Source: Pseudacidovorax sp. RU35E
GTDB lineage: Bacteria; Pseudomonadota; Gammaproteobacteria; Burkholderiales; Burkholderiaceae_C
DNA length: 64,000 bases
Direction of reading: 5' to 3'
Assembly (NCBI RefSeq): GCF_900156165.1
Contig: NZ_FTMY01000002.1
Location: 186,001-250,000, forward strand
A model generated the notes under the pieces. That model had not been told where the DNA came from. It ran no database searches and saw only the letters and a program-made list of their open reading frames with translations. The position numbers were made by a program, and so were the translations under genes. Below, in pieces: positions 47,322 through 62,175 of the stretch (its first letter is position 1; each line of letters starts with the position of its first letter).

Positions 47322-47647
47322 TCGGTAGTTACTTACGGGCGCCATGCACGGCGCGGTGTTCGTCTTGCGTCCACCCGCCACGATGGCGCTGCTTGGGCGC
47401 GAACCGGGCCAGTCGAGGTGGAAAGGGAGTAAAGGCGGGAGCCTGGAAGGATGTGGATCCGTCGTCCCCGGCGAAGAGCCGTGTTGCGGGTGACTGTGCC
47501 CGGCAACGTCCCGATTGTGGCACGAGTTCCGGGCCTGCGTGCCCGTCGGCCGCGTCGAGGAGGGATAATCGATGGTTTTCGCGCTCGCCCGGCACCGGGC
47601 CCCTCCTCATCCGAGCGCGTTCCCCCACCCCGCACCGACAAGAAGCC
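47322..47647. promoter_or_regulatory. Divergent intergenic region rhlE/ettA (326 bp)
   Basis: No credible gene lies here; the overlapping open frames have shadow composition. A GATAAT at 47564-47569 is a candidate -10 for ettA, but I find no matching -35. The leader of ettA would be about 70 nt. The rhlE promoter should lie on the left half; I cannot locate it. Confidence 0.4.
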
Positions 47648-49309
47648 ATGGCCCAGTACGTCTACACCATGAATCGCGTCTCCAAGACCGTGCCGCCCAA
47701 GCGGCAGATCTTGAAGGACATCTCCCTCTCGTTCTTTCCCGGCGCCAAGATCGGCGTGCTCGGCCTCAACGGCTCAGGCAAGTCCTCACTGCTGAAGATC
47801 ATGGCCGGCGTGGACAAGGAGTTCGAAGGCGAGGCCCTGCCGATGGCCGGCCTGTCGATCGGCTACCTCGAGCAGGAGCCCAAGCTCGATCCCGAGCACA
47901 CCGTGCGCGAGGCGATCGAGGAAGCCATGGGCGAAGTGAACAACGCCAAGAAGCGCCTCGAGGAAATCTATGCGGCCTATGCCGAAGAGGACGCGGATTT
48001 CGACGCGCTGGCCGCTGAGCAGGGCCAGCTCGAGGCCGTGATCGCCGCTGCCGGCACCGATTCGGAACACCAGATCGAAATCGCCGCCGACGCGCTGCGG
48101 CTGCCGCCCTGGGACGCCAAGATCGGCCTGCTGTCCGGCGGCGAGAAGCGCCGCGTCGCGCTGTGCCAGCTGCTGCTGTCCAAGCCGGACATGCTGCTGC
48201 TCGACGAACCCACCAACCACCTGGACGCCGAGTCGGTCGAGTGGCTGGAGATCTTCCTGCAGCGGTTCAGCGGCACCGTGGTGGCCATCACCCACGACCG
48301 CTACTTCCTCGACAACGCCGCCGAATGGATCCTGGAACTGGACCGCGGTCGCGGCATTCCGTACAAGGGCAACTACAGCACCTGGCTCGAACAGAAGGGC
48401 GAGCGCCTGGCGCAGGAGCAGAAGAGCGAGGAAGCCCACGCCAAGGCGCTGAAGAAGGAACTCGAGTGGTCGCGCCAGAACCCCAAGGCTCGGCAGGCCA
48501 AGAGCAAGGCGCGTCTGGCCCGCTTCGAGGAACTGTCCGACGTCGACTACCAAAAGCGCAACGAGACCAACGAGATCTTCATTCCCGTCGCTGACCGGCT
48601 GGGCCAGCAGGTCTTCGAATTCAAGGACGTCAGCAAGAGCTTCGGCGACCGCCTGCTGATCGACAAGCTGAGCTTCAGCATCCCGCCGGGCGCGATCGTC
48701 GGCATCATCGGCCCCAATGGCGCAGGCAAGTCCACGCTGTTCAAGCTGATCGCCGGCCGCGAGCAGCCCGACAGCGGCGAAGTCATCGTCGGCCAGACCG
48801 TGAAGATGGCCTTCGTCGACCAGCATCGCGACGAACTGGCCAACGAGAAGACCGTCTGGGAAGACATCTCGGGCGGCCTCGACATCATCAACGTCGGCAA
48901 GTTCCAGATGGCCAGCCGGGCCTATGCGGGCCGCTTCAACTTCAACGGCCAGGATCAGCAGAAGAAGGTCGGCAACCTATCGGGCGGTGAACGTGGCCGT
49001 CTGCACCTGGCCAAGACGCTGATCCAGGGCGGCAACGTCCTCATGCTCGACGAACCGTCGAACGACCTGGACGTGGAAACGCTGCGCGCTCTGGAAGACG
49101 CGCTGCTGGAATACGCCGGCACTGTGCTCGTCATCAGCCACGACCGCTGGTTCCTGGACCGCATCGCCACCCACATCCTGGCGGCGGAAGGCGATTCGCA
49201 ATGGGTGTTCTACAACGGCAACTACCAGGAGTACGAGGCCGACAAGAAGAAGCGCCTGGGCGAAGAGGGCGCCAAGCCCAAGCGCGTGCGCTTCAAGGCG
49301 CTCAAGTAA
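47648..49309 (+). CDS. ettA: Energy-dependent translational throttle EttA (ABC-F ATPase)
   Basis: A 553-residue ABC-F protein with two ABC domains (Walker A GLNGSGKS and GPNGAGKS, signatures LSGGEKRR and LSGGERGR) and the arm and linker regions of EttA. MAQYVYTMNRVSKTVPPKRQ is the characteristic N-terminus, with ATG at 47648. EttA binds the ribosomal E site and gates elongation according to the ATP/ADP ratio. Full length; no anomalies. Confidence 0.97.
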   Translation: MAQYVYTMNRVSKTVPPKRQILKDISLSFFPGAKIGVLGLNGSGKSSLLKIMAGVDKEFEGEALPMAGLSIGYLEQEPKLDPEHTVREAIEEAMGEVNNAKKRLEEIYAAYAEEDADFDALAAEQGQLEAVIAAAGTDSEHQIEIAADALRLPPWDAKIGLLSGGEKRRVALCQLLLSKPDMLLLDEPTNHLDAESVEWLEIFLQRFSGTVVAITHDRYFLDNAAEWILELDRGRGIPYKGNYSTWLEQKGERLAQEQKSEEAHAKALKKELEWSRQNPKARQAKSKARLARFEELSDVDYQKRNETNEIFIPVADRLGQQVFEFKDVSKSFGDRLLIDKLSFSIPPGAIVGIIGPNGAGKSTLFKLIAGREQPDSGEVIVGQTVKMAFVDQHRDELANEKTVWEDISGGLDIINVGKFQMASRAYAGRFNFNGQDQQKKVGNLSGGERGRLHLAKTLIQGGNVLMLDEPSNDLDVETLRALEDALLEYAGTVLVISHDRWFLDRIATHILAAEGDSQWVFYNGNYQEYEADKKKRLGEEGAKPKRVRFKALK

Positions 49310-49315
49310 GGCGAT

Positions 49316-49341
49316 GCGAGGGCGGCAGGCGTGGCCCTCGC
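49316..49341 (+). terminator. Hairpin downstream of ettA
   Basis: GCGAGGGC pairs with GCCCTCGC over a 10-nt loop, 6 nt after the ettA stop. No T-run follows, so termination strength is uncertain. The rest of the 251-bp gap up to 49560 has no recognisable gene or clear sigma-28 or sigma-54 promoter. Confidence 0.5.
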
Positions 49342-49560
49342 GCCGGCCGCTTCATCGTTTGCTCCAGGCGCCGACCCTGCGGGCGGGGGGTGGCGGCTGC
49401 GTCGCGAAAGCGATGAACAGGCGGGTGAAAGACGGCGAACTCGGCGCTATGACGGCGAACCCCGGGTGCCATACTGCCGCAGACCCCACATCGGCACTGG
49501 GCAGTGTCGGCGTGAACCCCGCCCCCGCGTGCCGAGGGCGTCCGGGGCCTGCGATCCGCC

Positions 49561-50583
49561 ATGAGAGACCCCCTTGCGCCGGCCATCGGCGGTTACTTCG
49601 AACTTGAGCTCGGTCCCGGCCGGGGCGTGCCGCATGCCCGCGCGCTGCAGTACCGCTGCGCCCGCGCGGCCTTCCTCGATCTGCTCGTCCGGGGTCGGCC
49701 CACCAACGTGTGGCTGCCCTGGTACCTGTGCGACAGCATGGTCCGAGCCGCGCGGCGCGCGGGCGTCGGCATCCGCCGCTATCGCCTGGACGAGCGGCTG
49801 CATGTGCTGGATGCGGCGCCCGAGGCCGGCGACTGGCTGCTGTGCGTCAACTACTTCGGCCTGTGCGAGCGGGCCGTGACCGATGCGGTGGCGCGCTTCG
49901 GTGCGCACCGGGTGGTCGTCGACAACAGCCAGGCGCTGTTCAGTCCGGCGGGGCCCGCCCTGGCCACGATCTACTCGCCGCGCAAGTTCGTCGGCATTCC
50001 CGATGGCGGCCAGATGGTGACGACGCTTTTCGCGGAGGAGCCCGCCGTGCGGGATACCGGCTCGGTGGAGCATTGCCGCCACCTGCTCGAACGCCTGGCG
50101 GGCGACGTCGAGCGGGGCCACGCGGACTTCACGCGCGCCGAGGAGCGCCTCGACGACGACGGGCCGCCGCTGGCCATGTCCACGCTCACCCGCCGCCTCA
50201 TGGCCGCAATCGACTTCGACCGCGTCCGTCAGGCGCGGACCCGGCATTTCACCCTGCTGCAAAAGGCGCTCGGTCCGAGCAACGGCTTCGACTGGACGCC
50301 TGCGGACGACGCGGCGCCGCTGTGCTACCCCTATGGCCCCGTGGCGCCCGGCATGCGCGAGGCCCTGCGCGAGCAGCGCATCTACACGCCCTGCTATTGG
50401 CCGGAGGTGGCCGCGGATGCAGCGGTCCCTGCCTTCGAGGCCTCGCTGGCCCGCGACACCCTGTTCCTGCCCTGCGACCAGCGCCTCACGGCGGATCAGC
50501 TTTCTCGCCTGATCGACGCCGTCCAGGCGGCCAGCAGGGGCGAGCCCGCACAGCAACGTCCTTCGGCGACCGCCACCCCATGA
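49561..50583 (+). CDS. Compact PLP aminotransferase-like protein (DegT-related)
   Basis: A 340-residue protein that looks like a shortened fold type I aminotransferase. VVVDNSQALFSPAGP carries an Asp (121) where PLP's pyridine nitrogen is bound, and YSPRKFVGIPDGGQMV carries Lys142 as candidate Schiff-base lysine, only 21 residues later (about 30 in typical DegT enzymes). CVNYFG and LPCDQRLT are further family-like blocks. It is the first gene of the rightward island arm and overlaps the ATP-grasp gene by 4 nt. The domain fused to the GT2 protein at 51938 is a degenerate relative. Amination of a sugar or a structural role are both possible. Confidence 0.65.
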   Translation: MRDPLAPAIGGYFELELGPGRGVPHARALQYRCARAAFLDLLVRGRPTNVWLPWYLCDSMVRAARRAGVGIRRYRLDERLHVLDAAPEAGDWLLCVNYFGLCERAVTDAVARFGAHRVVVDNSQALFSPAGPALATIYSPRKFVGIPDGGQMVTTLFAEEPAVRDTGSVEHCRHLLERLAGDVERGHADFTRAEERLDDDGPPLAMSTLTRRLMAAIDFDRVRQARTRHFTLLQKALGPSNGFDWTPADDAAPLCYPYGPVAPGMREALREQRIYTPCYWPEVAADAAVPAFEASLARDTLFLPCDQRLTADQLSRLIDAVQAASRGEPAQQRPSATATP

Positions 50584-51908
50584 GCGCCCCCGAGTCCACC
50601 GTCGCCGCCGGCGGCGCCGTCGCTGACATCGCCAAGGTGGGCGTGCTCGTGTTTCCCGCCGAAGCCGAGAACGCCTTCGAACTGTTCGACGCCCTGCGCT
50701 ATGCCACCCGCCTGCGCGTGTGGGGCGCGTCCAGCCGCCCGGGCTATGCCAACCTGCTGTTTCCGCGACTCAAGGACGACCTGCCCCCGATCTCGGATCC
50801 AGGCTTCCTGGATGCCCTGAACGCCTTCGTGGCCCAGGCCGGCATTTCGCTGATCTTCCCGACGCATGACGACGTTGCCCTGTACCTGGCGGCCCATGCG
50901 GCGCAGATCCGCGCCACCGTGGTGGGATCGGACCTGGCCTGCGCCGAGGTGTGCCGCGAGAAGCGGCGGCTCTACCAAGCCCTCGCCGGCGAAGCCTTCT
51001 GCCCCCGCGTCTTCGGCGAGACCGACCCGGTCGATGAGTGGCCCGTCTTCGCCAAGCCCAACCGCGGCCAGGGCGGCGTGGGCGCCGCGAGGGTCGGGAC
51101 GCCCGCGGAACTGGACCGGCTGCGCAGCGCGGGCGCAGACCTCGTCGTGTCCGAATTCCTCCCGGGAGAGGAGTTCACCGTCGACTGCTTCTCGGACCGG
51201 CACGGCCAGCTTCGCTTTGCGGGACCGCGTTCGCGCGACGTGGTCCGCATGGGCATCGCCTTCGTCTCGCGGGTCGTGCCGCTCGATGCGCAGACCCAGC
51301 AGATCGCCCAGGCGCTGAATGAGCGCTTCCGGCCACGGGGCCTCTGGTTCTTCCAGGTCAAAAGGGACGCGGGAGGCCGGCTCAAGCTGCTGGAGATGTC
51401 CTGCCGCGTCGCCGGCACGATGAGCGTGTACCGGCAGCTCGGTGTCAATCTCCCGTTGCTGGCGGTCTTCGATGCCCTGGGCATGGACGTGCAGGTGCTG
51501 AGGAACGACCTGCCGCTCACCCTGCGCCGGCGCCTGCAGAGCAGCTATGCGACCGACCTGACATTCGACACGGTCTACGTCGACTACGACGACACCGTCA
51601 TCGTCGACGGCCAGGTCAATGCGGTGCTGATGCAGTTCCTCTACGAATGCCGCAACCGGGGTCGCCGGCTCGTGCTCCTGACCAAGCATGCCGGGGACCT
51701 GGCCGCTCACATGCGGGCCTTTCATATCCCCGAGTCCTTGTTCGACCGCATCGATCATCTCGACGCGGCGCAGCGCAAGGTGGACTTCATCACCGACCGC
51801 AACGCCATCCTGATCGACAACCTGTTCGCCGAGCGCCGCGATGCCGCGCGCCATGCCGGCATCGCCGTGTTCGACGTCGATGCCGTACCGGGCCTGCTGG
51901 GCCTTTGA
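50580..51908 (+). CDS. ATP-grasp ligase fused to HAD-type phosphatase domain
   Basis: A 442-residue two-domain protein. Residues about 95-320 resemble CarB-like ATP-grasp ligases (IFPTHDDVALYLA, VFAKPNRGQGGVGAARVG with the ATP-binding lysine, LVVSEFLPGEEFTVDCF, LKLLEMSCRVAGTM with the metal Glu). Residues about 330-440 form a HAD domain with the phosphatase motifs intact: D335-Y-D337-D-T, LLTKH, a lysine in RKVDF, and ILIDNLFAERRDA. Such ATP-grasp domains join a carboxylate to an amine or nucleophile through an acyl-phosphate. The fusion suggests coupled ligation and dephosphorylation of a sugar-acid or amino-sugar intermediate. The substrate is unknown. Confidence 0.75.
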   Translation: MSAPESTVAAGGAVADIAKVGVLVFPAEAENAFELFDALRYATRLRVWGASSRPGYANLLFPRLKDDLPPISDPGFLDALNAFVAQAGISLIFPTHDDVALYLAAHAAQIRATVVGSDLACAEVCREKRRLYQALAGEAFCPRVFGETDPVDEWPVFAKPNRGQGGVGAARVGTPAELDRLRSAGADLVVSEFLPGEEFTVDCFSDRHGQLRFAGPRSRDVVRMGIAFVSRVVPLDAQTQQIAQALNERFRPRGLWFFQVKRDAGGRLKLLEMSCRVAGTMSVYRQLGVNLPLLAVFDALGMDVQVLRNDLPLTLRRRLQSSYATDLTFDTVYVDYDDTVIVDGQVNAVLMQFLYECRNRGRRLVLLTKHAGDLAAHMRAFHIPESLFDRIDHLDAAQRKVDFITDRNAILIDNLFAERRDAARHAGIAVFDVDAVPGLLGL

Positions 51909-51937
51909 GTCGACTCTCGCCAACCTGCCACGCCATC

Positions 51938-54022
51938 ATGAATGAAGAGCTTCCGCTGGTCAGCATCCTCATGGTGACCTACAACCACGCGCCGTACATC
52001 GCGCAGGCCATCCGCAGTTGCCTGTCGCAGCAGACCAGCTTTCCCTTCGAACTGGTGATCTGCGACGACGCCTCGACCGACGGCACCGATCAGATCGTGC
52101 GCGACTTCGCCGCGCAGGATCCCCGGGTGCACTACCTGCAGCAGCCGGTCAACGGACGCGGAGCGAACAACTATCTCGATGGTCTGGGGCACGTGCGCAG
52201 CCGGTACATCGCCTTTTGCGAAGGCGACGACTACTGGAGCACACCGCACAAGCTGGAGAAGCAGGTGCGCTTCCTGGAGGCGAATCCGGACTTCTCCGTC
52301 GCCTGCCACAAGGTCGAGATGCGCTTCGAGCATCGCAGCGACGACGCGCCGAAGCAGTACGTCTACAAGGACTGCAGCGTGGGCGACGAGCGCATGCGCC
52401 AGGGCATCTTCCATGCCGACGAGGCCATCGCCAACTACTACTTCCAGACCAGTTCCTTCGTCTTGCGCTGGCGCTTCCGGGAGGGTCTGCCGGCCTGGTT
52501 CCGCAAGTGGATGATGTTCGACCACGCCCTCATGATGCTGCACGCGGCCGAGGGCAAGATCAAATACTTCGACGAGGCCATGAGCGTCTGGCGGCGCAAC
52601 GACACCGGCTACTCGTGGCTGCAGAACGTCGACAAGGGCGTGTTCTTCCAGAAGGAAGGCTACGGCTGGATCCTGCACTACGAGGAGATGGACAAGTTCT
52701 TCGCCGGCCGATTCCATCTGCAGATCCGGGAGCGGGTGCTGCTGGCCGTGCGGGGCATGATCGCCAACTTCATGGAGACCGGCGACCTGGCCGGCCTGCG
52801 CCGCGTACTGGACGACCACCGGCCCTGGTGGGAGAAGGTGGTGAAGGACAACGCCGCGCTTGCCGAGGCGGTGCGCATGGCGCTGCCTGAGGAGGTGGAA
52901 CGCGTGCCGCCCTGGAGCGCCAGGGCGCCGAAGGCCGAGGCGCCTGCGCTGCCGCATCTGGGCGGCGCCATGGAACTGGGCATCACCAGCATTCCCGAAT
53001 GCGCCGACAGCGTGTGGGCCCACTGGACGCAGGGGCAGGAGCATGCCGGCTTCGCAACGCCGCTGGCGGCGCTGGCCGCTTGGTTGCATGACCGCCGTGT
53101 GCGCCGGCTGTGGTTGCCGTCCATCACCCCGAAGCAGGTCGAGATCGAGCTGCAGCAACTCTGGCTGGGCTACCAGTTCTATCCCGTCGGCGGCGACTTC
53201 GCGCCGGACCCGGGCTTTCTGGCGCACGTGCAGCCGGGCGACGCCGTGCTGACGCAGTCCTGGCTCGGCCGCGCGCCGGGTGGGCCGCTTCGCGAGGCGC
53301 TGGTGGCGCGCCAGGGCTTTCTCTGGATCGACGACCGCTCGCAGGCCCTGTGGCCCGGGCAGCCCAGCGAGGCCGACGTGGCCATCTACAGCGCGCACGA
53401 CGTGCTCGGCGTGCCGGATGGCGGCCTGCTGGTCGGGCCGGGCGTCGCCGCCCTGCAGCCACCGCCTGCCGACGCGGCCGGGCTGGCCGCGCAGCGCCGG
53501 GCGCTGATGCTCGAGCGGCTGGAAGCGCCCGCTAGCGGCGCCACACTCACCGCCCAGGACCGCGCACTTGCCCTTGCGCACCCGCTGCCCGCGGGCGCGA
53601 TGAGCCGGCTGAGCCGGGAGATGCTCGCGCGCATGCCGCTTCCGGCGCTCGTGCAGCGCAGCCAGGACAACTGGCGCCTGCTCACGCATTGGCTGCAGGA
53701 CTGGGCGCTGTGGCCACGCCAGGAGGGCGTGGACTTCGCGCCCGCCTTCTTCCCGATGCTCGTGCCCAGGGGAATGCCGGCGGTCTTCGTCATCACGGCC
53801 CTCAACCGTGACGGCATCGTGTGCCAGACATTTCCATTGGCCCTCAACGAGCGCTACGCCGGCTGCCTGGGCGCCGAGAAGGAAACGCTCGACCGCCTGC
53901 TGTGCCTGCCCTGCGACCATCGCTACGGCGAAGACGACATGCGCCGCATCGCCGGCCAGGTGCGCCGCATCCTGGTGGGCGATTCGGCACTCGGCAGTGC
54001 CGGCGCGCGCTTCATTCCCTAG
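51938..54022 (+). CDS. GT2 glycosyltransferase fused to a degenerate aminotransferase-like domain
   Basis: A 694-residue protein. Residues 6-240 are a GT-A family 2 glycosyltransferase (VSILMVTYNHAPYIAQAI, CDDASTDGTD, AFCEGDDYW with the metal DxD). Residues about 350-690 resemble the protein encoded at 49561: DRSQALW aligns with DNSQALF, YSAHDVLGVPDGGLLV with YSPRKFVGIPDGGQMV, and LPCDHRYGEDD with LPCDQRLTADQ. The candidate PLP lysine is replaced by Asp488, so this half cannot be an active aminotransferase; it may bind substrate or partner with the 49561 protein. It starts 29 nt after the ATP-grasp gene. Confidence 0.8.
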   Translation: MNEELPLVSILMVTYNHAPYIAQAIRSCLSQQTSFPFELVICDDASTDGTDQIVRDFAAQDPRVHYLQQPVNGRGANNYLDGLGHVRSRYIAFCEGDDYWSTPHKLEKQVRFLEANPDFSVACHKVEMRFEHRSDDAPKQYVYKDCSVGDERMRQGIFHADEAIANYYFQTSSFVLRWRFREGLPAWFRKWMMFDHALMMLHAAEGKIKYFDEAMSVWRRNDTGYSWLQNVDKGVFFQKEGYGWILHYEEMDKFFAGRFHLQIRERVLLAVRGMIANFMETGDLAGLRRVLDDHRPWWEKVVKDNAALAEAVRMALPEEVERVPPWSARAPKAEAPALPHLGGAMELGITSIPECADSVWAHWTQGQEHAGFATPLAALAAWLHDRRVRRLWLPSITPKQVEIELQQLWLGYQFYPVGGDFAPDPGFLAHVQPGDAVLTQSWLGRAPGGPLREALVARQGFLWIDDRSQALWPGQPSEADVAIYSAHDVLGVPDGGLLVGPGVAALQPPPADAAGLAAQRRALMLERLEAPASGATLTAQDRALALAHPLPAGAMSRLSREMLARMPLPALVQRSQDNWRLLTHWLQDWALWPRQEGVDFAPAFFPMLVPRGMPAVFVITALNRDGIVCQTFPLALNERYAGCLGAEKETLDRLLCLPCDHRYGEDDMRRIAGQVRRILVGDSALGSAGARFIP

Positions 54023-54093
54023 GGCCATCGCTCGCCCCGATCCCGCCGGCCCCCCTCAATCACCCCATCACCGCCTCGTCCGAAGGAACAACC

Positions 54094-55089
54094 ATGCGTT
54101 TCTGCAACCGGCCCTACGACCACTTCCACATCACCCACAACGGCAAGACCTATTCCTGCGGCTGGGCGTCCAAGCGCATGATCGGGATCTTGTCCGAGCA
54201 GACGGTCGACGAGATCCAGAACGGCCCCGACGTGCAGGCCCTGCGCGACTCCATCGAGGACCAGAGCTTCCGCTACTGCCGCGACACCTCCTGTCCCTAC
54301 ATCAGCAACGACAGCCTGCCCGACCTGTCGCCCGAGGACTTCCGCAAGGAGGTCGACGCGCGGCTGGGCAAGCCGCCGACCAACTTCAACATCGCCTACG
54401 ACTACACCTGCAACCATGCGTGCCCGAGTTGCAGGGACGGACTGTTCAAGACCGATCCGGGCTACCGCGACATGATGGCCCGCATGGAAGAGCAACTGCT
54501 GCCCTACCTGGGCAACGCCAAGTTCCTCGAAGCCAGCGGCAACGGCGACGTGTTCTCCAGCACGTACATGATGAACATGCTGTCCAAGGTCAAACCCGCG
54601 GACAAGAACTGCCTGATCACCCTCGAGACCAATGGCGTGCTCGTCAAACGCAACTGGGAGAAGGTCAGCCATCTGGAGGACTACCAGCTGACGGTGATCG
54701 TGACGCCCAACAGCTACGAGCGGGCCACCTACCAGGAGCTGGCGGGCGGCTTCGACAACCTCGACTTCACGATGGACAGCCTGGACTTCCTGTGCGAGCT
54801 GCGACAGGCCGGGCGCATCAAGAACTTCATCATCACGATGGTGATCCAGCAGGCCAACTTCCGCGAGGTGCCCGCCTTCGTCGAGACGTCGCTGACGCGC
54901 TTCAAGGCCGACCGCGTGCAGCTGCGTCCCATGCTGCCCTGGTTCAAGCTCTTCCACGACAAGAACTTCGCGCTGCGGGACCTGACCAATCCAAAGCATC
55001 CGGACCACGCCGAGTTCGTCCAGGTCATGAACCATCCGATCTGCCAGGACCCGCGCGTCTTCCACTGGTCCGGCAAGATCAGCGCCTGA
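54094..55089 (+). CDS. Radical SAM protein with N-terminal auxiliary cysteine cluster
   Basis: A 331-residue radical SAM enzyme. The SAM cluster motif CNHACPSC (Cys106, Cys110, Cys113) has the canonical CX3CX2C spacing. Upstream, Cys4, Cys22 (SCGW), Cys62 and Cys67 (YCRDTSCPY) look like a SPASM-type auxiliary cluster placed before rather than after the barrel. SASGNGDVFSS-type glycine-rich and TLETNGVL segments fit the partial TIM barrel. The ATG at 54094 has GAAGGAAC upstream. Reaction unknown: it could rearrange, oxidise or crosslink a sugar, lipid carrier or peptide. No short precursor-peptide gene was found nearby. Confidence 0.8.
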   Translation: MRFCNRPYDHFHITHNGKTYSCGWASKRMIGILSEQTVDEIQNGPDVQALRDSIEDQSFRYCRDTSCPYISNDSLPDLSPEDFRKEVDARLGKPPTNFNIAYDYTCNHACPSCRDGLFKTDPGYRDMMARMEEQLLPYLGNAKFLEASGNGDVFSSTYMMNMLSKVKPADKNCLITLETNGVLVKRNWEKVSHLEDYQLTVIVTPNSYERATYQELAGGFDNLDFTMDSLDFLCELRQAGRIKNFIITMVIQQANFREVPAFVETSLTRFKADRVQLRPMLPWFKLFHDKNFALRDLTNPKHPDHAEFVQVMNHPICQDPRVFHWSGKISA

Positions 55090-55102
55090 GAGGGGAGTGC
55101 CG

Positions 55103-56062
55103 ATGCCGCAGTACATCCTGATGGCACCGCTCTCGCGCCTGGGCGTGAAGTTCGGGCGTGAGCTGGCGGGCATGCTGCCGGACGTGGTGGCCGCGGTCGA
55201 CGACCAGCAGGCCGAGGCCACGGTGCACGGCCTTCCGCGCTGGACCAGCGCCCAGTTCGTTGCCCGCGCCCGGAGCCTGGAGGCGCCGGTGGCGCTCGAC
55301 CTGTCGGTGAGCGATCAGGGCCGCGCCTGGGTGGCGGGTCTGGCCCAGGCGGCTGGCGTGCCGGTGGCCACGCTGGATTCCGGCGTGCTCGAACTGGCCC
55401 GTGCCCACAGTGCGGTGCGCCCCGGCGAGACCTTCTCGCCGTGGCTGGCGGATGCGGCCTTCATGGAGACGGTCGCCGCGATCCACGGCGCCACGCTGGT
55501 GGACCCCTACCGGCTGTGGGAGCTCTGGAGCCTGGTGGCCGAGACCGGGACGTTGCCCGGCAGCGTGCTCGAGGTGGGCGTCTGGCGCGGCGGCACGGGC
55601 GCGCTGATGGCACGGCGGATGCAGCTGCTGGGCCAGCACGATCCGATCTACCTGTGCGACACCTTCTACGGTGTGGTCAAGGCGGGCGAGCACGACAACC
55701 ACTACGCCGGCGGCGAGCATGCCGACACCACCCGCTCGCATGTGGAGACGCTGCTGGCCCAACTCGCGCCCGCGGCCAAGCCGCGCCTGCTGGAGGGGAT
55801 CTTTCCGGAACAGACCGGGGCCGAGGTGGCGGACCAGATCTTCCGCCTGGTCCACATCGACGTGGACACCTACCTGTCCGCCCGGGACGTGCTGGACTTC
55901 GTCTGGCCGCGCATGCCCGTGGGCGGCGTGGTCGTGTACGACGACTATGGCTGCGAGGCCTGCGGCGGCATCGTCCGCCATGTGGACGAGCAGCGCGGGC
56001 GGCCGGACCGGTTGGTCGTCCACAACCTCAATGGTCACGCGCTGCTGATCAAGCGCTGCTGA
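55103..56062 (+). CDS. TylF/macrocin-type O-methyltransferase with N-terminal domain
   Basis: A 319-residue methyltransferase. The SAM-binding motif is VLEVGVWRGGTGALMARR (about residues 154-171), followed by IYLCDTFYGVVKAG, and the metal/catalytic block HIDVDTYLSARDVLDFVW, where the acidic cluster matches macrocin O-methyltransferases. The first 110 residues form an extra domain I cannot assign. Start ATG at 55103 follows GAGGGGA. It ends 37 nt before the convergent WbqC-like gene, last of the rightward arm. Confidence 0.85.
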   Translation: MPQYILMAPLSRLGVKFGRELAGMLPDVVAAVDDQQAEATVHGLPRWTSAQFVARARSLEAPVALDLSVSDQGRAWVAGLAQAAGVPVATLDSGVLELARAHSAVRPGETFSPWLADAAFMETVAAIHGATLVDPYRLWELWSLVAETGTLPGSVLEVGVWRGGTGALMARRMQLLGQHDPIYLCDTFYGVVKAGEHDNHYAGGEHADTTRSHVETLLAQLAPAAKPRLLEGIFPEQTGAEVADQIFRLVHIDVDTYLSARDVLDFVWPRMPVGGVVVYDDYGCEACGGIVRHVDEQRGRPDRLVVHNLNGHALLIKRC

Positions 56063-56099
56063 GGGGGCCGCCGGCGGGCGGCTTGCGGCGCGTCGCCGG

Positions 56100-56843
56100 T
56101 TACAGCAGGGTGTAGTCCTGCAGTAATCCGCGCACCGCCTCGGGCCGGTTGAACATCAGCACGTCGATGATGGACAGCCCGCCCACGAAGGCCGTGCCGA
56201 ACTGGCGGTAGCGGCATTCGCCGGACTTGAGGAAGTGCAGGGCGATCCCGCGCGCCTCGAAGGCCTCCCGCGCATAGAGCCCCTGGCCGCCGATGGCGTT
56301 GATGTAGGTGCCCGCGTGCAGGTGCTCGCACATGCGCAGCACCTTGTCCTGCGCACTGGCCGCGCCGTCCTTGGGGATGTCGGAAGACAGCCACAGGCGC
56401 GTGCCGAGGCCCAGGTATTCGGCGATGCAGACCAGGCTGTGGACGATGAAGCGCGCAAGGTTGCGGTCCTCGAAGCTGCAGATGCGTCGCACCAGCGCGA
56501 GGGCCGCATCCCGCATCGGTGCGCGGCTGTACGCGTGCTCCAGGGTGCGCAGAAAGCGCGAGAAGTCGTCCGCCACCGCGATCTCGTCGATGCGCCGGTT
56601 GGGACTGGCCTGCGAGAGCGCGATGCTGAAGCGGTGGGACGCGCCATCGAGCAGGATGTGGTTGCGGTTGATCCAGCCGCCCTTGATGAACTGCGCGTCG
56701 TCGTAGACGACATAGTCGTCCACGGCCGCCAGCAGCTGGAAGTAGCCGAGATAGGGAAAGAGGTAGGGCTGCATGATGCCGACCCGTCCCCCCTGGCGCT
56801 GCGGGGCGGACACGCCGGCCGCGGCGCCCGTCGTACTGCTCAC
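56100..56843 (-). CDS. WbqC-like family protein
   Basis: A 247-residue WbqC-type protein, recognised by IMQPYLFPYLGYFQLL, VVYDDAQFIKGGWINRN and GGLSIIDVLMFNRPE. The family occurs in polysaccharide and surface-glycan clusters; its reaction is not securely known to me. Start GTG at 56843 overlaps the DegT stop as GTGA, so they are translationally coupled. An internal Met at 56774 would remove the first 23 residues, which lack conservation. It is last in the leftward arm. Confidence 0.85.
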   Translation of the reverse strand: MSSTTGAAAGVSAPQRQGGRVGIMQPYLFPYLGYFQLLAAVDDYVVYDDAQFIKGGWINRNHILLDGASHRFSIALSQASPNRRIDEIAVADDFSRFLRTLEHAYSRAPMRDAALALVRRICSFEDRNLARFIVHSLVCIAEYLGLGTRLWLSSDIPKDGAASAQDKVLRMCEHLHAGTYINAIGGQGLYAREAFEARGIALHFLKSGECRYRQFGTAFVGGLSIIDVLMFNRPEAVRGLLQDYTLL

Positions 56844-58003
56844 CTCGCCAGCGAGTCGGCCACCACGCGCACGACACGTGCGCACTGCGTGTCGCTCATG
56901 CCCCAGAAGAAGGGCAGCCCGAGCAGATCCTGCGAAAGGGCCTGGGACACCGGCGCCTCGAGCGCGACGGCGCCGGCTTGCCGAAGGATGGCCATGTCGT
57001 TCATGACCGGCTGGTACCAGCGGCGCGTGCCGATGCCTGCGGCAGCACACGCGCGCTCCAGGGTCTGGCGCCTGTCGGCGTCGGGAAGCCGCATGCACAG
57101 CAGGGTGGGCACCTGCGTCGCGCCGTCCGGGCCGCCGCACTGCCAGCGCAACAGGCCCGGCGCCGCGGCATTCAGGGCCGCAAAGAGCCGCGCGTAGAGG
57201 GCGCGGCGCTGCAGCGCGTGCGCGTCCCAGCTCTCCATTGCGGCCAGGGCGACGGCGGCGTGGTATTCGCTCATCTTGGCATTGGTGCCCACCCCGGCCA
57301 GCGCGCCAAGTGGCAGGTCGCCGTCGGGATCGAGGTTGATGCCGAAGTTGGACAGCTGGCGCACGCGCTCCGCCAGCCCCGGGCGCGTCGAGACGACGAA
57401 GCCGCCTTCGCCGGCCGGAAGGCTCTTGGTCGTGTGCAGGCTGAACACCAGCGTGCCCGACGCGCCGCGCAGCCACTGCCGGCCGTAGGCGGCGGCGGCG
57501 TCCACGATCACGGGCAGCCCGGTCTCCTCCTCGAAGTGCTGCCAGGCCGCCATGTCATGGGGCATGCCGAGCGTGGCCACCGGCATGACGGCGTCGACCC
57601 GGCACCGGCTGCACGCGTCGCGCGCGATCTGGGGCGTGAGCAGCCAGCTGTGGGCATCCACGTCCGCCAGCACGGGCACCAGTCCGGCCCGCACCACGGC
57701 CGTGGCCGTCGCCACGAAGGTGAACGAGGGCACCAGCACATGCGCGCCCTTGGGCAGGGCCAGCGCCTGCAGGGCCAGTTCCAGGCCCAGCGTGGCGTTG
57801 CTCACCGTCGCGAGCTGCTCGCCGGGCACGTCGAACTGCCGGCAGAAGGCCGTCTCGAGCTCGCGCACCAGCGGCCCGAAATTCGAGTAGTGGCGCGCGG
57901 CATGCATGCGCTCCAGCCAGGGCCAGAGCGCGGCGGGCGTGGGCATGTCGGGCACAAGCAGCGGCACGGGGGCCACCGCATCCAGGGCTTGTTCGCGCAT
58001 CAT
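56840..58003 (-). CDS. DegT/DnrJ/EryC1/StrS-family PLP aminotransferase
   Basis: A 387-residue sugar aminotransferase-type protein. VPSFTFVATATAV and SLHTTKSLPAGEGG (PLP lysine) are standard, as is MSEYHAAVALAAM. The Asp of VIVDAAAAYG pairs with PLP. It usually aminates a nucleotide-linked keto sugar. Start ATG at 58003 overlaps the OGT stop (ATGA) and the gene overlaps the WbqC-like start, so the three are co-translated. Unlike the compact protein at 49561, it is of full length and has intact active-site features. Confidence 0.9.
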   Translation of the reverse strand: MMREQALDAVAPVPLLVPDMPTPAALWPWLERMHAARHYSNFGPLVRELETAFCRQFDVPGEQLATVSNATLGLELALQALALPKGAHVLVPSFTFVATATAVVRAGLVPVLADVDAHSWLLTPQIARDACSRCRVDAVMPVATLGMPHDMAAWQHFEEETGLPVIVDAAAAYGRQWLRGASGTLVFSLHTTKSLPAGEGGFVVSTRPGLAERVRQLSNFGINLDPDGDLPLGALAGVGTNAKMSEYHAAVALAAMESWDAHALQRRALYARLFAALNAAAPGLLRWQCGGPDGATQVPTLLCMRLPDADRRQTLERACAAAGIGTRRWYQPVMNDMAILRQAGAVALEAPVSQALSQDLLGLPFFWGMSDTQCARVVRVVADSLAR

Positions 58004-59649
58004 GCTGCCGTCCTTGTGGCCTGCAGCCACGGTTCGAGTTCGGTCGCGGTCGTGAGCGATCGGTGATCGCCTCTCAGCCAGTTGAGCCACATCAGGCGGA
58101 AGGCCTTCTCGAGGTCCCGCGTGTGCTGCCCGTAGTCCATGAGGAAGCTGCGCCGCATGCGCTCGCGCGCGCCCAGGCGCTGCACGAGCAGCCGCTCGGG
58201 GTCGTCCATGAGCCGCAGCGCGGCCTGCACGTAGCCGTCGACGTCTTGGGCCACTTCGCCGCCGAAGCCCAGGCCGCGCAGCGTGAGGGCGGTGGCGGCG
58301 TCGACGCCGCGCTCGGCGTCGAGGGTCACGATCGACAGGCCCATCCAGAGCGCGTGCAGCGTGGTGGTGCCGCCGCACACGGGCGAGGTGTCCAGCGCGA
58401 TGTCGGCGATGTGGCCGAGCTCCATGAAGTGGTCCAGCGGCTGCTGGTGCATGACGAACACCCGGTCCAGCGGCATGCCGGCGGCCTGCACGCGCGGCAG
58501 CATGTGGGCCTGGGCCAGCTCGGGCGTGCGTTCCTTGACCATGATGATCAGTTGCGCATCGGGCCGCAGCGCCAGGATGCGGGCCCAGACCGCCAGCATC
58601 TCGTTGGTGAGCTTGGTGGAGCTGTTGAGCGAGATGAGCGTCGGGTGGCCCTTGCGCTGCATCGGCAGGCTCTCGCACAGCGGCGAGTCCGGCGGCGCAT
58701 AGGTGGTCATGCAGTTGAGGTGGAACAGCCGCTCGCTGTAGAAGGCGTCATGTCCCGACGGCGCCAGGGCGCCATCGACGAAGCGGTAGTCCATGGCCTT
58801 CATGCCGAGCGGATGCATGAAGCCGAGCCAGGTCAGCTGGATGGGCGCGGCACGCTCGGCAAAGGTCAGCAGCCGGTTGCCCTCGGTGTGGCCGGACAGG
58901 TCGATCAGGATGTCGATGCCGTGCGACCGGATCAGGCGGCACAGCGCGTCTTCCGACAGCGGGGCGACGTCGTGCCAGTGCGGCACATGGGCCTGCATCC
59001 GGTCGGTGAACTCGTCGCGTGGGCCGACGCTGTACACATGCACCTCGACCTGCTGCGGATCGTGGTGCTCGAAGACCGGCGCGATGAAGAAGGCGATCGA
59101 GTGCCGGCGCAGGTCGGCCGAGACATAGCCGACCTTCAGGCGGCGCTGCGGATCCCGGCTGCGGGGCGGCAGCGGGCGGGCCTTGAGGGTGAGCGGATCG
59201 GCGAATCGCCGGCCCCAGTCCCGGTAGACCTCCAGCGTCCGGCGCGGATCGGGATTGGTCTGGCTGTGCATGTACGCCCGCAGCTGCCACATGGCCGAGT
59301 CCGGCGTGCGTGCGCAGACCTCGTCGATCAGCGCCAGGGCCTCCTCGCGCTGGCCGCTGTTGTAGCGGGCGAAGGCCAGGCCGTGCTGGGCCCAGGCATG
59401 GCCGGGCTGCAGCGCCAGGGCCGTCTCCATGCACATGGCCGCATTGGCCCAGTTCTCCAGCCGCAGGAAGCCGCGGCCCAGGTGCACCCAGGCGTCCACA
59501 TGCTGCGGATCGTGGGTGATGGCCTGCGAGAAGTGCTGCATGGCCGCCTCCAGCCGGTAGGCCTGGACTTCCTCCAGCCCGCGCAGGACGGCCGCATGGG
59601 CCAGCGCAGCGGCGGAGGCGGTGGGCGGAAGGTCGGTATGGACGGGCAT
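58000..59649 (-). CDS. TPR/SPINDLY-type protein glycosyltransferase (OGT family GT41)
   Basis: A 549-residue protein. Residues about 10-130 hold three or four TPR-like repeats (DAWVHLGRGFLRLENWANAA, AWAQHGLAFARYNSGQREEA). Residues about 165-545 are the O-linked GlcNAc transferase catalytic region (LKVGYVSADLRRHSIAFFIA, GIDILIDLSGHTEGNRLL, DIALDTSPVCGGTTTLHALW). Bacterial relatives glycosylate flagellins or adhesins on Ser/Thr. Its place directly beside flgK/flgL and the HDOD gene supports flagellin or hook modification. The donor sugar is unknown. Overlaps the DegT start. Confidence 0.9.
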   Translation of the reverse strand: MPVHTDLPPTASAAALAHAAVLRGLEEVQAYRLEAAMQHFSQAITHDPQHVDAWVHLGRGFLRLENWANAAMCMETALALQPGHAWAQHGLAFARYNSGQREEALALIDEVCARTPDSAMWQLRAYMHSQTNPDPRRTLEVYRDWGRRFADPLTLKARPLPPRSRDPQRRLKVGYVSADLRRHSIAFFIAPVFEHHDPQQVEVHVYSVGPRDEFTDRMQAHVPHWHDVAPLSEDALCRLIRSHGIDILIDLSGHTEGNRLLTFAERAAPIQLTWLGFMHPLGMKAMDYRFVDGALAPSGHDAFYSERLFHLNCMTTYAPPDSPLCESLPMQRKGHPTLISLNSSTKLTNEMLAVWARILALRPDAQLIIMVKERTPELAQAHMLPRVQAAGMPLDRVFVMHQQPLDHFMELGHIADIALDTSPVCGGTTTLHALWMGLSIVTLDAERGVDAATALTLRGLGFGGEVAQDVDGYVQAALRLMDDPERLLVQRLGARERMRRSFLMDYGQHTRDLEKAFRLMWLNWLRGDHRSLTTATELEPWLQATRTAA

Positions 59650-59697
59650 GGCGGTGGCGGGCAGGAGGGTGGGGCGGGCGGGAGGGCGCGCGGACGC

Positions 59698-60939
59698 TCA
59701 GGTGTGGGCGAAGGCCAGTGTGCGCAGCAGCGAGCGGTTGATCTCTTCGGCGCTCATGTCGAAGCGCGCGCGGGTGGCGCGCACCACGGCCGGGTTGTCC
59801 TGGCCCAGGGCCTGGGCCACCTGCAGCACGCTGGCATAGGGGCCGCTGCCGCGCAGCACCGCCTCGACCAGCGCCTCGGGCAGCGCAAGACGGCCCAGGG
59901 CGCTGCGCATGGGCTCGTCCATCACCAGGTCGAGCTGGGCGAACAGGCCGCAGAGGTAGACCTCGCGCCGCAGTTCCTCCTCGACGCCGGCCTCCATCAG
60001 CTCCGCGGCCAGCAGAGCACGCAGCACCATGGTGGCGTTGGCGGGTTGCAGGTTGCGGTCGTCGCTGGTGTGCGGCAGCTGCTCGGCGAGCCAGGCGTCG
60101 AGCGTGCGGTAGCCCAGCATCATCACGCCGTGGCGCAGCGAGGTGATGCGGCGGCGCAGGCCCAGGCTCGCGGAGTTGAGATGCAGCAGCAGGCGGTAGG
60201 CCAGCGCCGGCTCCTGGCCGAACTGCAGCTCCAGCTGGTCGAGCGATTGTTCCGACTCCAGTGCCTGCATGGTGCGGATCACCGCGCGCCGCGTCGGCGG
60301 CAGCGGCTGGCCCTTGTTGCGGTGGAGCACGTCCTCGATGGGCCAGCCGGCCACGGCCCAGGCGGCGCGCTGGTCCAGCGCATGCTCGACCAGGGCCATG
60401 CTGGCGGCGCCCACAACGATCTGTTCGGGCTCGATCGGGCTGGCCGCCAGTTGCGCCTGCGCGGCGGCCCGCTGGGCCGGATGGCGCGGATCGGCGTCGC
60501 GGGCACGCAGCACGGTCTGCAGTGCGGCGGCGGCGTGGCTCACCTCCAGCTGCATGAGCCGCGGCGAGGAGCGGCCGGGAAAGTCGGGCCGGCGCGGGCC
60601 GGGACCGCTGGCGGCGATCAGGATGGCGCCGCGGCCGCGGGCCGCGCGGGCGGCCTCGAACAGGGCCTCGTCGCCCAGCCAGTCGACGGGCACTTCGACC
60701 ATCGGCGAATCGCCATCGGCCTGTTCCAGCATGCCCATCAGCAGCCGCGGGCTGCGCGCGGCCACCAGCAGGGTGGGCGACTCGGCCGTCCACATCTCGG
60801 TGAGGCTGCGCAGCAGGTGGCCGCCATCGGCCTGACTGCCGTCCTCATAGGCCAGCAGGCGGATGCCGGCCAGCTCCCGCCGACGGTTCCACAGAAGCTG
60901 GTAGCACAGGGTCAGACTGCCGAGAACGGATTGGGCCAC
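59698..60939 (-). CDS. HDOD-domain signalling protein (YuxH-like, EAL-derived N-terminus)
   Basis: A 413-residue protein. The C-terminal half (about 205-400) is an HDOD domain (LQFGQEPALAYRLLLHLNSA, LRHGVMMLGYRTLDAWL, YLCGLFAQLDLVM). The N-terminal 200 residues look like a degraded EAL phosphodiesterase fold with no EAL or DDF metal motifs, so c-di-GMP hydrolysis is not expected. The start is GTG at 60939 with a weak Shine-Dalgarno; it is uncertain. Such YuxH-like proteins modulate motility or biofilm. It lies between flgL and the glycosyltransferase gene. Confidence 0.75.
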   Translation of the reverse strand: MAQSVLGSLTLCYQLLWNRRRELAGIRLLAYEDGSQADGGHLLRSLTEMWTAESPTLLVAARSPRLLMGMLEQADGDSPMVEVPVDWLGDEALFEAARAARGRGAILIAASGPGPRRPDFPGRSSPRLMQLEVSHAAAALQTVLRARDADPRHPAQRAAAQAQLAASPIEPEQIVVGAASMALVEHALDQRAAWAVAGWPIEDVLHRNKGQPLPPTRRAVIRTMQALESEQSLDQLELQFGQEPALAYRLLLHLNSASLGLRRRITSLRHGVMMLGYRTLDAWLAEQLPHTSDDRNLQPANATMVLRALLAAELMEAGVEEELRREVYLCGLFAQLDLVMDEPMRSALGRLALPEALVEAVLRGSGPYASVLQVAQALGQDNPAVVRATRARFDMSAEEINRSLLRTLAFAHT

Positions 60940-60978: not shown

Positions 60979-62175
60979 TCAACCGAGGTAGTTGAAGAGG
61001 GAGAGTTTCTGGATCTGAGCATAGGTGCCCAGGGCGGCAGAGTACATCGTCTGCTGGCTCGTGATATCCGAAAGTACCTGCACGGTGTCGGCGTCCTCGG
61101 CGTCCGCGCGCACCTTCTCCAACTGGTCGCCCCGGGTGGTGAGGCGGTCGCCGATGGTGTCGGCGCGATTGAGCAGTTCGCCGGCCTGGCTGCGTGCGGC
61201 CGACAGCTTGGCAAGGCCGGCATCGACCTGCGCCAGTCCCCGGGACACGGCCTGCGTGGCCTTGCCGTCCGAGCCCGACACCACGCCGGCGATGGCCTGG
61301 TCCAGCACGGCGAAGACGCTCTGCGTGGTCGAGGGCCTGACCTCCAGCGCGTCGCCGTTGGCCGGCACGCCGCTGGCGGTGAAGGACATGCCGCCGAAGC
61401 TGATCGCCTGGCCGCTCTTGTAGGCGGCGCCGGCGACGACGGGCTGCTGGCTGGTGGTGTCGAGGACGTCGTAGGTGGTGCTGCCGTCGGCGGCGACCGA
61501 GAACGTCACCTGGTAGCCATGGCCGGTGAGGGCGCTCGGGTCCACCACCTGGCCGGTGTCGGTGTGCACCTGGCTGGTGTTGCCCGCCTGGTTGACCTCG
61601 AACACGCCGTTGCCGGTGGGCACGTCCATCCACGTCGCATAGCCGTCGAGCACGCCGGGCACGCTGGTTTCGGACGAGGCGACCTGGCCGGACACCCCCT
61701 GGTAGCTCACCGTGCCGCCTGCATCGCTGAACGGGCGGGCGGTGCTGCCCAGGCCGCCGAACAGCGGGAGCCCGTCGGCGTTGGTGGTGTTGGCATACGA
61801 CAGCAGCTGGTCGCGCAGGGCCGTCATCTGCTGGGCGATGGACTGGCGATCGGCGCTCGAGAGCGCGCCGCCGCCGGCCTGCACCAGCAGCGAGCGGAAG
61901 GTCTGCAGCGCCGTGACCGAGTCGCCCAGCGTCGATTCCACGCTGGTCATCGACGCGGTCTGCGCCTGCAGCGCGCGCTGCTGGGTCTGGACGCGTGCGG
62001 CGCGCGTGGTGGCCCGCTCCGCCTGGGCGGCGGCCAGCGGATCGTCGCTGAGCCGGTTGATCTTCTTGCCGGTATTGACCTGCTCCTGCAGGTCGGCCAT
62101 CTGGGCCTGTCGCTCCGACAGGCGCTGGATCGCCGTCTCGCGCAGGTTGGGGGTGGAGATGCGTTGGATGGTCAT
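60979..62175 (-). CDS. flgL: Flagellar hook-associated protein FlgL (HAP3)
   Basis: A 398-residue hook-filament junction protein. The N-terminal MTIQRISTPNLRETAIQRLS and C-terminal segment (LSDITSQQTMYSAALGTYAQ) are the coiled-coil ends shared with flagellin, and the middle region is variable. The ATG at 62175 lies 17 nt after the flgK stop. It joins FlgK to the filament outside the cell. Exported by the flagellar type III system, so it has no signal peptide. Confidence 0.95.
   Translation of the reverse strand: MTIQRISTPNLRETAIQRLSERQAQMADLQEQVNTGKKINRLSDDPLAAAQAERATTRAARVQTQQRALQAQTASMTSVESTLGDSVTALQTFRSLLVQAGGGALSSADRQSIAQQMTALRDQLLSYANTTNADGLPLFGGLGSTARPFSDAGGTVSYQGVSGQVASSETSVPGVLDGYATWMDVPTGNGVFEVNQAGNTSQVHTDTGQVVDPSALTGHGYQVTFSVAADGSTTYDVLDTTSQQPVVAGAAYKSGQAISFGGMSFTASGVPANGDALEVRPSTTQSVFAVLDQAIAGVVSGSDGKATQAVSRGLAQVDAGLAKLSAARSQAGELLNRADTIGDRLTTRGDQLEKVRADAEDADTVQVLSDITSQQTMYSAALGTYAQIQKLSLFNYLG

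Follow-up and report, generated by a model that had tools for sequence, protein, structure and literature searches.

In Pseudacidovorax sp. RU35E, an insertion of about 10.4 kb lies beside the flagellar genes flgL and flgK, within a 64,000-nucleotide stretch of contig NZ_FTMY01000002.1 (positions 186,001 to 250,000; hereafter the window). We give a probability of about 0.6 to the explanation that this insertion is an exchanged flagellin glycosylation island carrying an aminoacyl-sugar pathway. The block sits in a flagellar cluster, combines glycosyltransferase with sugar-modifying genes and varies among close relatives, all of which are traits of flagellin glycosylation islands. It is highly probable that the island serves flagellar glycosylation. 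The odds are about even that a WbqC-family protein places an amino acid on the island's sugar, and it is rather unlikely that the source of D-alanine is a pyridoxal phosphate (PLP)-fold protein for which we use the working label PLPX (product of 49561–50583).

The eight island genes form two convergent arms (49,561–59,649) that meet at 56063–56099, in agreement with the junction at about 56.08 kb given by the first-pass annotation of this DNA. All the gene types it named (aminotransferase-like, ATP-grasp, GT2 fusion, radical SAM, methyltransferase, WbqC-like and OGT) are present, and the features are as follows.

47393..49309, plus strand: ABC-F protein (EttA-like), two ABC domains; left boundary, outside the island
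49314..59686, no strand: the island, a block inserted relative to three congeners (inner limits, from similarity breakpoints)
49561..50583, plus strand: PLPX, PLP fold-type-I protein by predicted fold, with invariant Lys142 and Asp121
50580..51908, plus strand: ATP-grasp ligase with C-terminal HAD-like segment (PF15632, 68.7 bits, over cut-off)
51938..54022, plus strand: GT2 glycosyltransferase fused to a PLPX-like domain (PF00535, 99.7 bits, over cut-off)
54094..55089, plus strand: radical SAM protein with N-terminal SPASM domain and CxxxCxxC motif (SPASM over cut-off, PF04055 below cut-off)
55103..56062, plus strand: TylF-type O-methyltransferase (Pfam)
56100..56774, minus strand: WbqC-family protein (207.5 bits)
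56840..58003, minus strand: DegT-family sugar aminotransferase (215.6 bits)
58000..59649, minus strand: TPR plus GT41 (SPINDLY/OGT-type) glycosyltransferase (141.1 bits)
59698..60939, minus strand: HDOD protein (Pfam); right boundary, outside the island
60979..62175, minus strand: flgL (Flagellin_N over cut-off)
62193..63962, minus strand: flgK, with the gene start at or beyond the window end (FlgK_D1, 211.7 bits)

Some details of the earlier description need adjusting. Besides the two aminotransferase-like proteins it counted, PLPX and DegT, a third such domain forms the C-terminal half of the GT2 fusion. The overlapping frames that it took to indicate tight units occur at two junctions, PLPX/ATP-grasp and OGT/DegT (4 bp each), the remaining junctions being gapped by 13–71 bp. 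The OGT gene is close to flgL-flgK as stated, with the HDOD gene (59698–60939) between it and flgL. For the proposed ATP-grasp/HAD fusion, the ATP-grasp half is sound and the HAD half consists of motifs read by eye; Pfam gave no HAD match in the C-terminus of the window protein or of one relative (L020), and E 0.075 in another (L206).

Comparison with 14 congeners locates the insertion precisely between the ettA-like and HDOD genes. Three congeners (G001, G010, G011) have an empty site, with the HDOD and ettA-like ABC-F genes (~90% and ~92% identical to those of the window) 84–85 bp apart, and their similarity to the window stops at 49309–49313 and restarts at 59687–59714. Since three congeners lack exactly this block, it is more than a chance grouping of genes. 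The flgK, flgL and flagellin genes are retained in all three. Another cassette fills the site in two congeners, six more distant ones have HDOD followed by unrelated genes and three gave no flgL match (flgL was detected in 12 of the 15 genomes of the genus, that of the window included).

The two differently filled sites share part of the island. Running from HDOD to ABC-F, the site of G007 (L145, L158) holds an OGT gene (76% identity), a DegT gene (62%) and then a different cassette, whose first gene after DegT is, by Pfam, a hexapeptide acyltransferase (PglD-like) and whose further Pfam matches are Rieske oxygenases, an FkbM methyltransferase and a short-chain dehydrogenase/reductase; a ketoacyl-synthase-III-like gene was recognised by BLAST to a cluster with an ACP_syn_III representative. 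The order in G006 (L146, L227) is ABC-F, cassette, DegT (62%), OGT (64%) and HDOD, and the cassette includes a Rieske oxygenase (Pfam) together with PglD-like and ketoacyl-synthase-III-like genes (by resemblance). A second G006 OGT gene (70%) lies outside the insertion site, between flgL and HDOD. With the DegT genes of both species located by tblastn, the OGT-DegT pair is common to the three island-bearing species and the decorating genes differ, the PglD-like gene of G006 and G007 occupying the position held by WbqC in the window. PLPX itself was found in one of 60 relatives, its own genome, with no match in the 14 congeners. The best explanation is a mosaic in which a resident OGT-DegT pair is joined to an exchangeable decoration cassette that moves horizontally. 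Separately, the N-terminal ~100 residues of TylF (window 55115–55402) share 44% identity with the N-terminal end of the G007 FkbM methyltransferase (L145, 10210–10506), a pattern that would suit one docking domain common to two unlike methyltransferases.

The association with flagella extends beyond the genus. We analysed the loci of the best 80 of at least 551 PLPX relatives, a sample that leans toward window-like proteins and whose p-values ignore kinship; tblastn placed flagellar genes in 29 of them. WbqC and PLPX recur with DegT genes in flagellar and polysaccharide loci (DegT in 29/29 flagellar and 45/51 other loci; WbqC in 28/29 and 33/51). Four genes are concentrated in flagellar loci: OGT (20/29 vs 3/51, p 3e-9), ATP-grasp-HAD (12/29 vs 2/51, p 5e-5), PhyH (9/29 vs 2/51, p 0.001) and TylF (6/29 vs 0/51, p 0.002). 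GNAT shows no difference (9/29 vs 18/51), while RmlA (1/29 vs 11/51), RmlB (3/29 vs 15/51), a sulfotransferase-like gene (1/29 vs 8/51) and a second ATP-grasp family (1/29 vs 15/51) are more frequent in the others; the radical SAM gene occurs in 0/29 and 0/51. The co-occurrence pattern that the first-pass annotation had named as a refutation gives a mixed outcome: OGT, ATP-grasp-HAD and TylF go with flagella, whereas the PLPX loci are flagellar in 29 cases and non-flagellar in 51.

Complete or nearly complete sets stand beside fliC in Burkholderia multivorans (L041), Achromobacter aloeverae (L051), Comamonas composti (L073), Pseudomonas (L078, L084, L089; no OGT seen) and Enterobacter (L090, L100; no TylF seen). 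In a tree of 67 rows, the window PLPX falls in a five-row clade (100/99) with L035, L040, L041 and L043, all four of which have fliC in the locus. A decorated filament, as first proposed, remains the best reading, given the flgKL synteny, the GT41 OGT, the presence, absence and swapping among congeners and the occurrence of relatives next to fliC across many genera. Two loci are unusual: one genome (G206) has its set split, with WbqC-PLPX near flgM (L027) and ATP-grasp-HAD, TylF, methyltransferases and PhyH on another contig (L206), and a contig labelled as a Lokiarchaeota metagenome-assembled genome (L106) carries WbqC and PLPX side by side, possibly through a binning error.

PLPX matches no Pfam family (best E 0.13; no PF01041 at E 1) and no NCBIfam model at E 0.1. 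Its AlphaFold2 model (predicted local distance difference test score, pLDDT, 94) has the fold of sugar aminotransferases (ArnB, 8snj, Z 23.6 over 273 residues), and Lys142 and Asp121 are invariant across 61 aligned rows, features of a predicted PLP fold type I protein with a Schiff-base lysine. Among 399 genomes of the order there are 17 matches including its own, nine strong (E <= 3.3e-25) and seven weak, and at least 551 relatives were confirmed in the genome_contigs collection. The C-terminal half of the GT2 fusion is a PLPX paralogue (BLASTP E 5e-8) in which Asp488 replaces the invariant Lys and His487 an Arg, with Asp466 kept. No second GT2-PLPX fusion was seen in the 399 order genomes, where the C-terminal domain has 11 matches including its own, the other ten in frames of at most 407 residues. 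In the PLPX tree this domain groups with L030/L031, a placement flagged as long branches meeting. We can only guess that the lysine-less domain binds a sugar nucleotide or pairs with PLPX. L030 (8841–12468) and L031 carry a DegT-PLPX pair, in L030 without WbqC seen.

Two E. coli O-antigen clusters with known products offer the closest chemical comparison. The O121 order is rfbB-rfbA-DegT-WbqC-GNAT, with no PLPX beside these genes in the 18.6 kb examined, and the O121 antigen contains 4-amino-4,6-dideoxyglucose (Qui4N) bearing N-acetylglycine, according to the accessible part of PMC3210612, which cites Parolis 1997. A table in PMC10609480 lists N-acetylglycyl on Qui4N for Shigella dysenteriae D7 too. 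The O123/O186 order is rfbB-rfbA-wzx-DegT-WbqC-[hypothetical]-GNAT-MaoC, and the hypothetical protein is a PLPX, 34% identical over 320 residues to that of the window; it has no Pfam match at E 0.01, and its DNA finds a match in 10 of 5426 E. coli genomes, annotated there as 'hypothetical protein'. For O123, the same table (citing Perepelov 2010) gives N-[(S)-3-hydroxybutyryl]-D-alanyl on Qui4N. The simplest fit of these two clusters is that WbqC would attach the amino acid, PLPX would perform a D-alanine-specific step and GNAT would add the terminal acyl group. The window shares with them WbqC and PLPX together with DegT, as a DegT-WbqC(-PLPX) core, and an available RmlB-derived dTDP sugar. 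It differs in a DegT outside the VioA clade, in the lack of GNAT and in a protein-directed OGT instead of wzx/wzy. An O-antigen-like set also occurs on a small E. coli plasmid, pLAU-OXA3 (L161, 4525–13399), comprising an epimerase, rfbB, rfbA, DegT, GNAT, a PALP-type PLP enzyme, an ATP-grasp protein and a glycosyltransferase, with a PLP enzyme again beside a ligase.

The predicted structure of WbqC is consistent with such a role. Its AlphaFold2 model (pLDDT 95) aligns over 216 of its 224 residues with Bacillus subtilis BshC (4wbd; Z 13.9, root-mean-square deviation 3.2), followed by class I aminoacyl-tRNA synthetases at Z <=7.4; the top Foldseek match is also BshC (E 0.094, probability 0.94). 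BshC differs in its 540-residue chain, against 224 in WbqC, and profile comparison with four BshC sequences saw no sequence link. In WbqC, the residues Gln2, Asp25, Asn38, Tyr157, Asn159, Ser201 and Asp204 are invariant. It is described as a putative cysteine ligase acting on glucosaminyl-malate in bacillithiol synthesis (PMC4360819, in the available part of the text), and in a 2017 source, likewise available in part, the WbqC family was termed functionally uncharacterised (PMC5532660). No functional study of WbqC or PLPX was found in the literature searched, which mostly did not extend to subscription journals.

The second ATP-grasp family provides a further comparison. WbqC alone is present in 59 of the 80 loci, this ATP-grasp family alone in 14, both in two and neither in five (p 8e-10), so that one takes the place of the other. 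D-Ala-D-Ala ligase and L-amino acid ligase domains are matched by one member, and the order DegT, ATP-grasp, PLPX is found in 12 loci (L044, L048, L052, L083, L086, L088, L094, L096, L099, L101, L103, L114), which span Pseudomonadota, Bacteroidota and Campylobacterota. A predicted fold is no proof of function, and we use the BshC resemblance only jointly with the other evidence. We infer that WbqC may be an amino-acid:amino-sugar ligase because of this BshC-like fold, the O121/O123 comparison, the exchange with an ATP-grasp ligase and the position shared with the PglD-like acyltransferase.

From here we turn from what was observed directly (the anatomy, the insertion site, the empty and differently filled congener sites, the recurrence beside fliC and the predicted folds) to a proposed pathway. 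DegT would form a nucleoside diphosphate (NDP)-amino-deoxy sugar; RmlB, encoded elsewhere in the genome (508 bits, cut-off 365), should make dTDP-4-keto-6-deoxyglucose available. WbqC, with its BshC-like fold, would then form an amide between the amino group of this sugar and an amino acid, which PLPX might make or epimerise (by analogy with E. coli O123, D-alanine). A further amide could come from the ATP-grasp protein, whose nearest solved structure by sequence is 2pn1, and O-methylation from TylF. OGT, probably the flagellin glycosyltransferase, would act before export, placing the sugar on Ser/Thr of cytoplasmic flagellin; the GT2 fusion would extend the flagellin-bound sugar. A late oxidation or epimerisation by the radical SAM enzyme is a guess. 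Among the 399 order genomes that protein has a match in its own genome only, and 239 genomes of the class add a single weak match other than itself; a relative (30.5%) neighbours glycosyltransferase genes on a Paracoccus plasmid. A pseudaminic or legionaminic acid product was rejected, there being, as the first-pass annotation had noted, no NeuB-type synthase among the eight island genes, to which the search for one was confined. A second sugar locus of this genome (L211, G000:C23, 7246–16000) encodes RmlB together with two further OGT-like proteins and an RmlD-like one.

Several observations weigh against this interpretation, some bearing on its chemistry and some on its flagellar setting. 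The O121 stretch also carries asnB, a second amide-forming candidate, and ends, as examined, within a glycosyltransferase gene; the amidated N-acetylgalactosaminuronic acid (GalNAcA) reported for O121 in the accessible part of PMC7555982 would suit asnB. Pfam finds no GNAT N-acyltransferase among the island genes. A sequence link between WbqC and BshC was assigned a probability of 0.1 by hhalign with four BshC sequences, and a 2015 review (PMC4360819, in the part available) stresses that BshC still awaited a demonstration of its activity in vitro. The radical SAM gene and the GT2 fusion with the lysine-less PLPX domain have no counterpart in the samples searched. The window DegT lies outside a 29-row clade (100/100) of VioA, cassette DegTs and the O121/O123 enzymes. 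Its sole partner among the 64 rows of that tree, from which the congener copies (62%) were left out, is L030 (43% identity, long branch). Because of this placement the identity of the sugar is not fixed, and the tree speaks against a VioA-made sugar.

The chemistry could also be simpler. The aminotransferases might build a diamino-dideoxy sugar, with no aminoacylation and with WbqC performing ordinary acyl transfer or another step. PLPX has a sugar-aminotransferase fold (the Z of 23.6 to ArnB), the best NCBIfam scores of the window DegT are with C4 sugar aminotransferase models (DesI, PseC, ArnB), all far below cut-off, and the congeners' ordinary PglD-like acyltransferase in WbqC's place fits plain acylation equally well. 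We nevertheless consider this version improbable, for O121 needs an enzyme to attach glycine and has WbqC between DegT and GNAT (asnB being the other candidate), WbqC has a BshC-like fold and WbqC is exchanged with an ATP-grasp protein resembling amino-acid ligases.

With respect to the flagellar setting, 51 of the 80 PLPX loci are non-flagellar, and the chromid of Cupriavidus metallidurans CH34 carries a nearly full set with no flagellar gene in the 28.9 kb examined. Five full-length ATP-grasp-HAD relatives were chosen irrespective of PLPX (L206–L210): two are by flagellar genes (L208, L209), two on short contigs without flagellar genes and one in a polysaccharide-like locus. Nor do Ser+Thr counts in FliC separate island species (66, 65, 59) from empty-site species (63, 63) in the five genomes compared (G000, G006, G007 and G001, G010), which leave out G011, with its match in two pieces, and six distant congeners; flagellin sequence was dropped as an island marker for want of this signal. 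The island might, then, act on a cell-surface polysaccharide or another protein, the flgL side being merely a convenient insertion site. The non-flagellar loci, the Cupriavidus stretch and the related genes in E. coli O-antigen clusters are all in keeping with this possibility, which we rate slightly lower still than the absence of aminoacylation: no flippase, polymerase or initiating transferase was matched in the island, GT41 OGT, ATP-grasp-HAD and TylF favour flagellar loci and the window PLPX is nested among flagellar ones. Pathways resembling those for ribosomally synthesised and post-translationally modified peptides commonly contain ATP-grasp and SPASM radical SAM proteins, yet such a peptide pathway (or a small-molecule one), with the ATP-grasp ligase and a SPASM radical SAM maturase, is very improbable here despite weak NCBIfam similarity to maturases, because the other island genes encode sugar enzymes, the Pfam scan found no exporter (precursor peptides of <100 residues were not looked for) and the radical SAM gene is absent from the 80 related loci.

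The left-hand ABC-F gene (47393–49309) has a megablast match to an annotated ettA. The G+C content of the island (69.3%) is no different from that of its flanks (68.8 and 71.3%), with lower values in the radical SAM (62.0%, the lowest) and WbqC (66.1%) genes. The flagellin gene lies on the same contig, 18.7 kb past the window end and after other flagellar genes; Pfam confirms flgE, motA, motB, fliS, fliF, flagellin, flgK and flgL on this contig, and further flagellar gene names were assigned from gene order and resemblance. No RNA family reached its gathering score in the window, a terminator and promoter scan of the region between the arms found none, and a sigma-28 promoter scan gave no match, its fliC positive control being negative too.

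More broadly, and tentatively, WbqC proteins may be tRNA-independent ligases with a BshC/class I aminoacyl-tRNA-synthetase fold that place amino acids on nucleotide amino sugars. PLPX would supply the D-alanyl residue, one aminoacyl-sugar module would serve flagellin and O-antigens, and in this genome the lysine-less PLPX-GT2 fusion, ATP-grasp and radical SAM proteins would lead on from it to a flagellin sugar so far unobserved. We hold this general proposal to be somewhat short of even odds. It gives a testable role to the large uncharacterised WbqC family and to an unnamed PLP-fold family of at least 551 relatives, and links O-antigen with flagellin chemistry. The genus, whose species variously have the island, an empty site or a different filling, also provides a natural experiment on the function of flagellin sugars.

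To call this an undescribed modification system, as was tentatively done at first, is too strong. Highly variable flagellin glycosylation islands with GT41 or GT2, DegT and methyltransferases have been described in Enterobacteriaceae (De Maayer and Cowan 2016, PMC4875605), and a related island has been listed in Dickeya. The available text on the Enterobacteriaceae islands reports glycosyltransferase families that are mutually exclusive within a strain, whereas the window has GT41 and GT2 together, and the term 'ATP-grasp', which applies to a window protein, has a count of zero in that text; both are exchanged, variable blocks that lie in flagellar clusters and carry GT41/SPINDLY or GT2 transferases, DegT and methyltransferases. 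The sfmABCDE operon of Shewanella oneidensis, as far as the accessible part of PMC3765264 describes it, has a NeuB-domain synthase and otherwise different genes, and resembles the island in being an operon for flagellin modification that includes a methyltransferase and an ATP-grasp protein. In Dickeya zeae WH1, the available portion of PMC9650423 lists seven genes in an insertion between fliA and fliC, none of them ATP-grasp or radical SAM, and suggests no function for them; the insertion is absent from four other strains. Besides two hypothetical genes it holds WbqC, DegT and methyltransferase-type genes, placed, as in the window, within a flagellar cluster.

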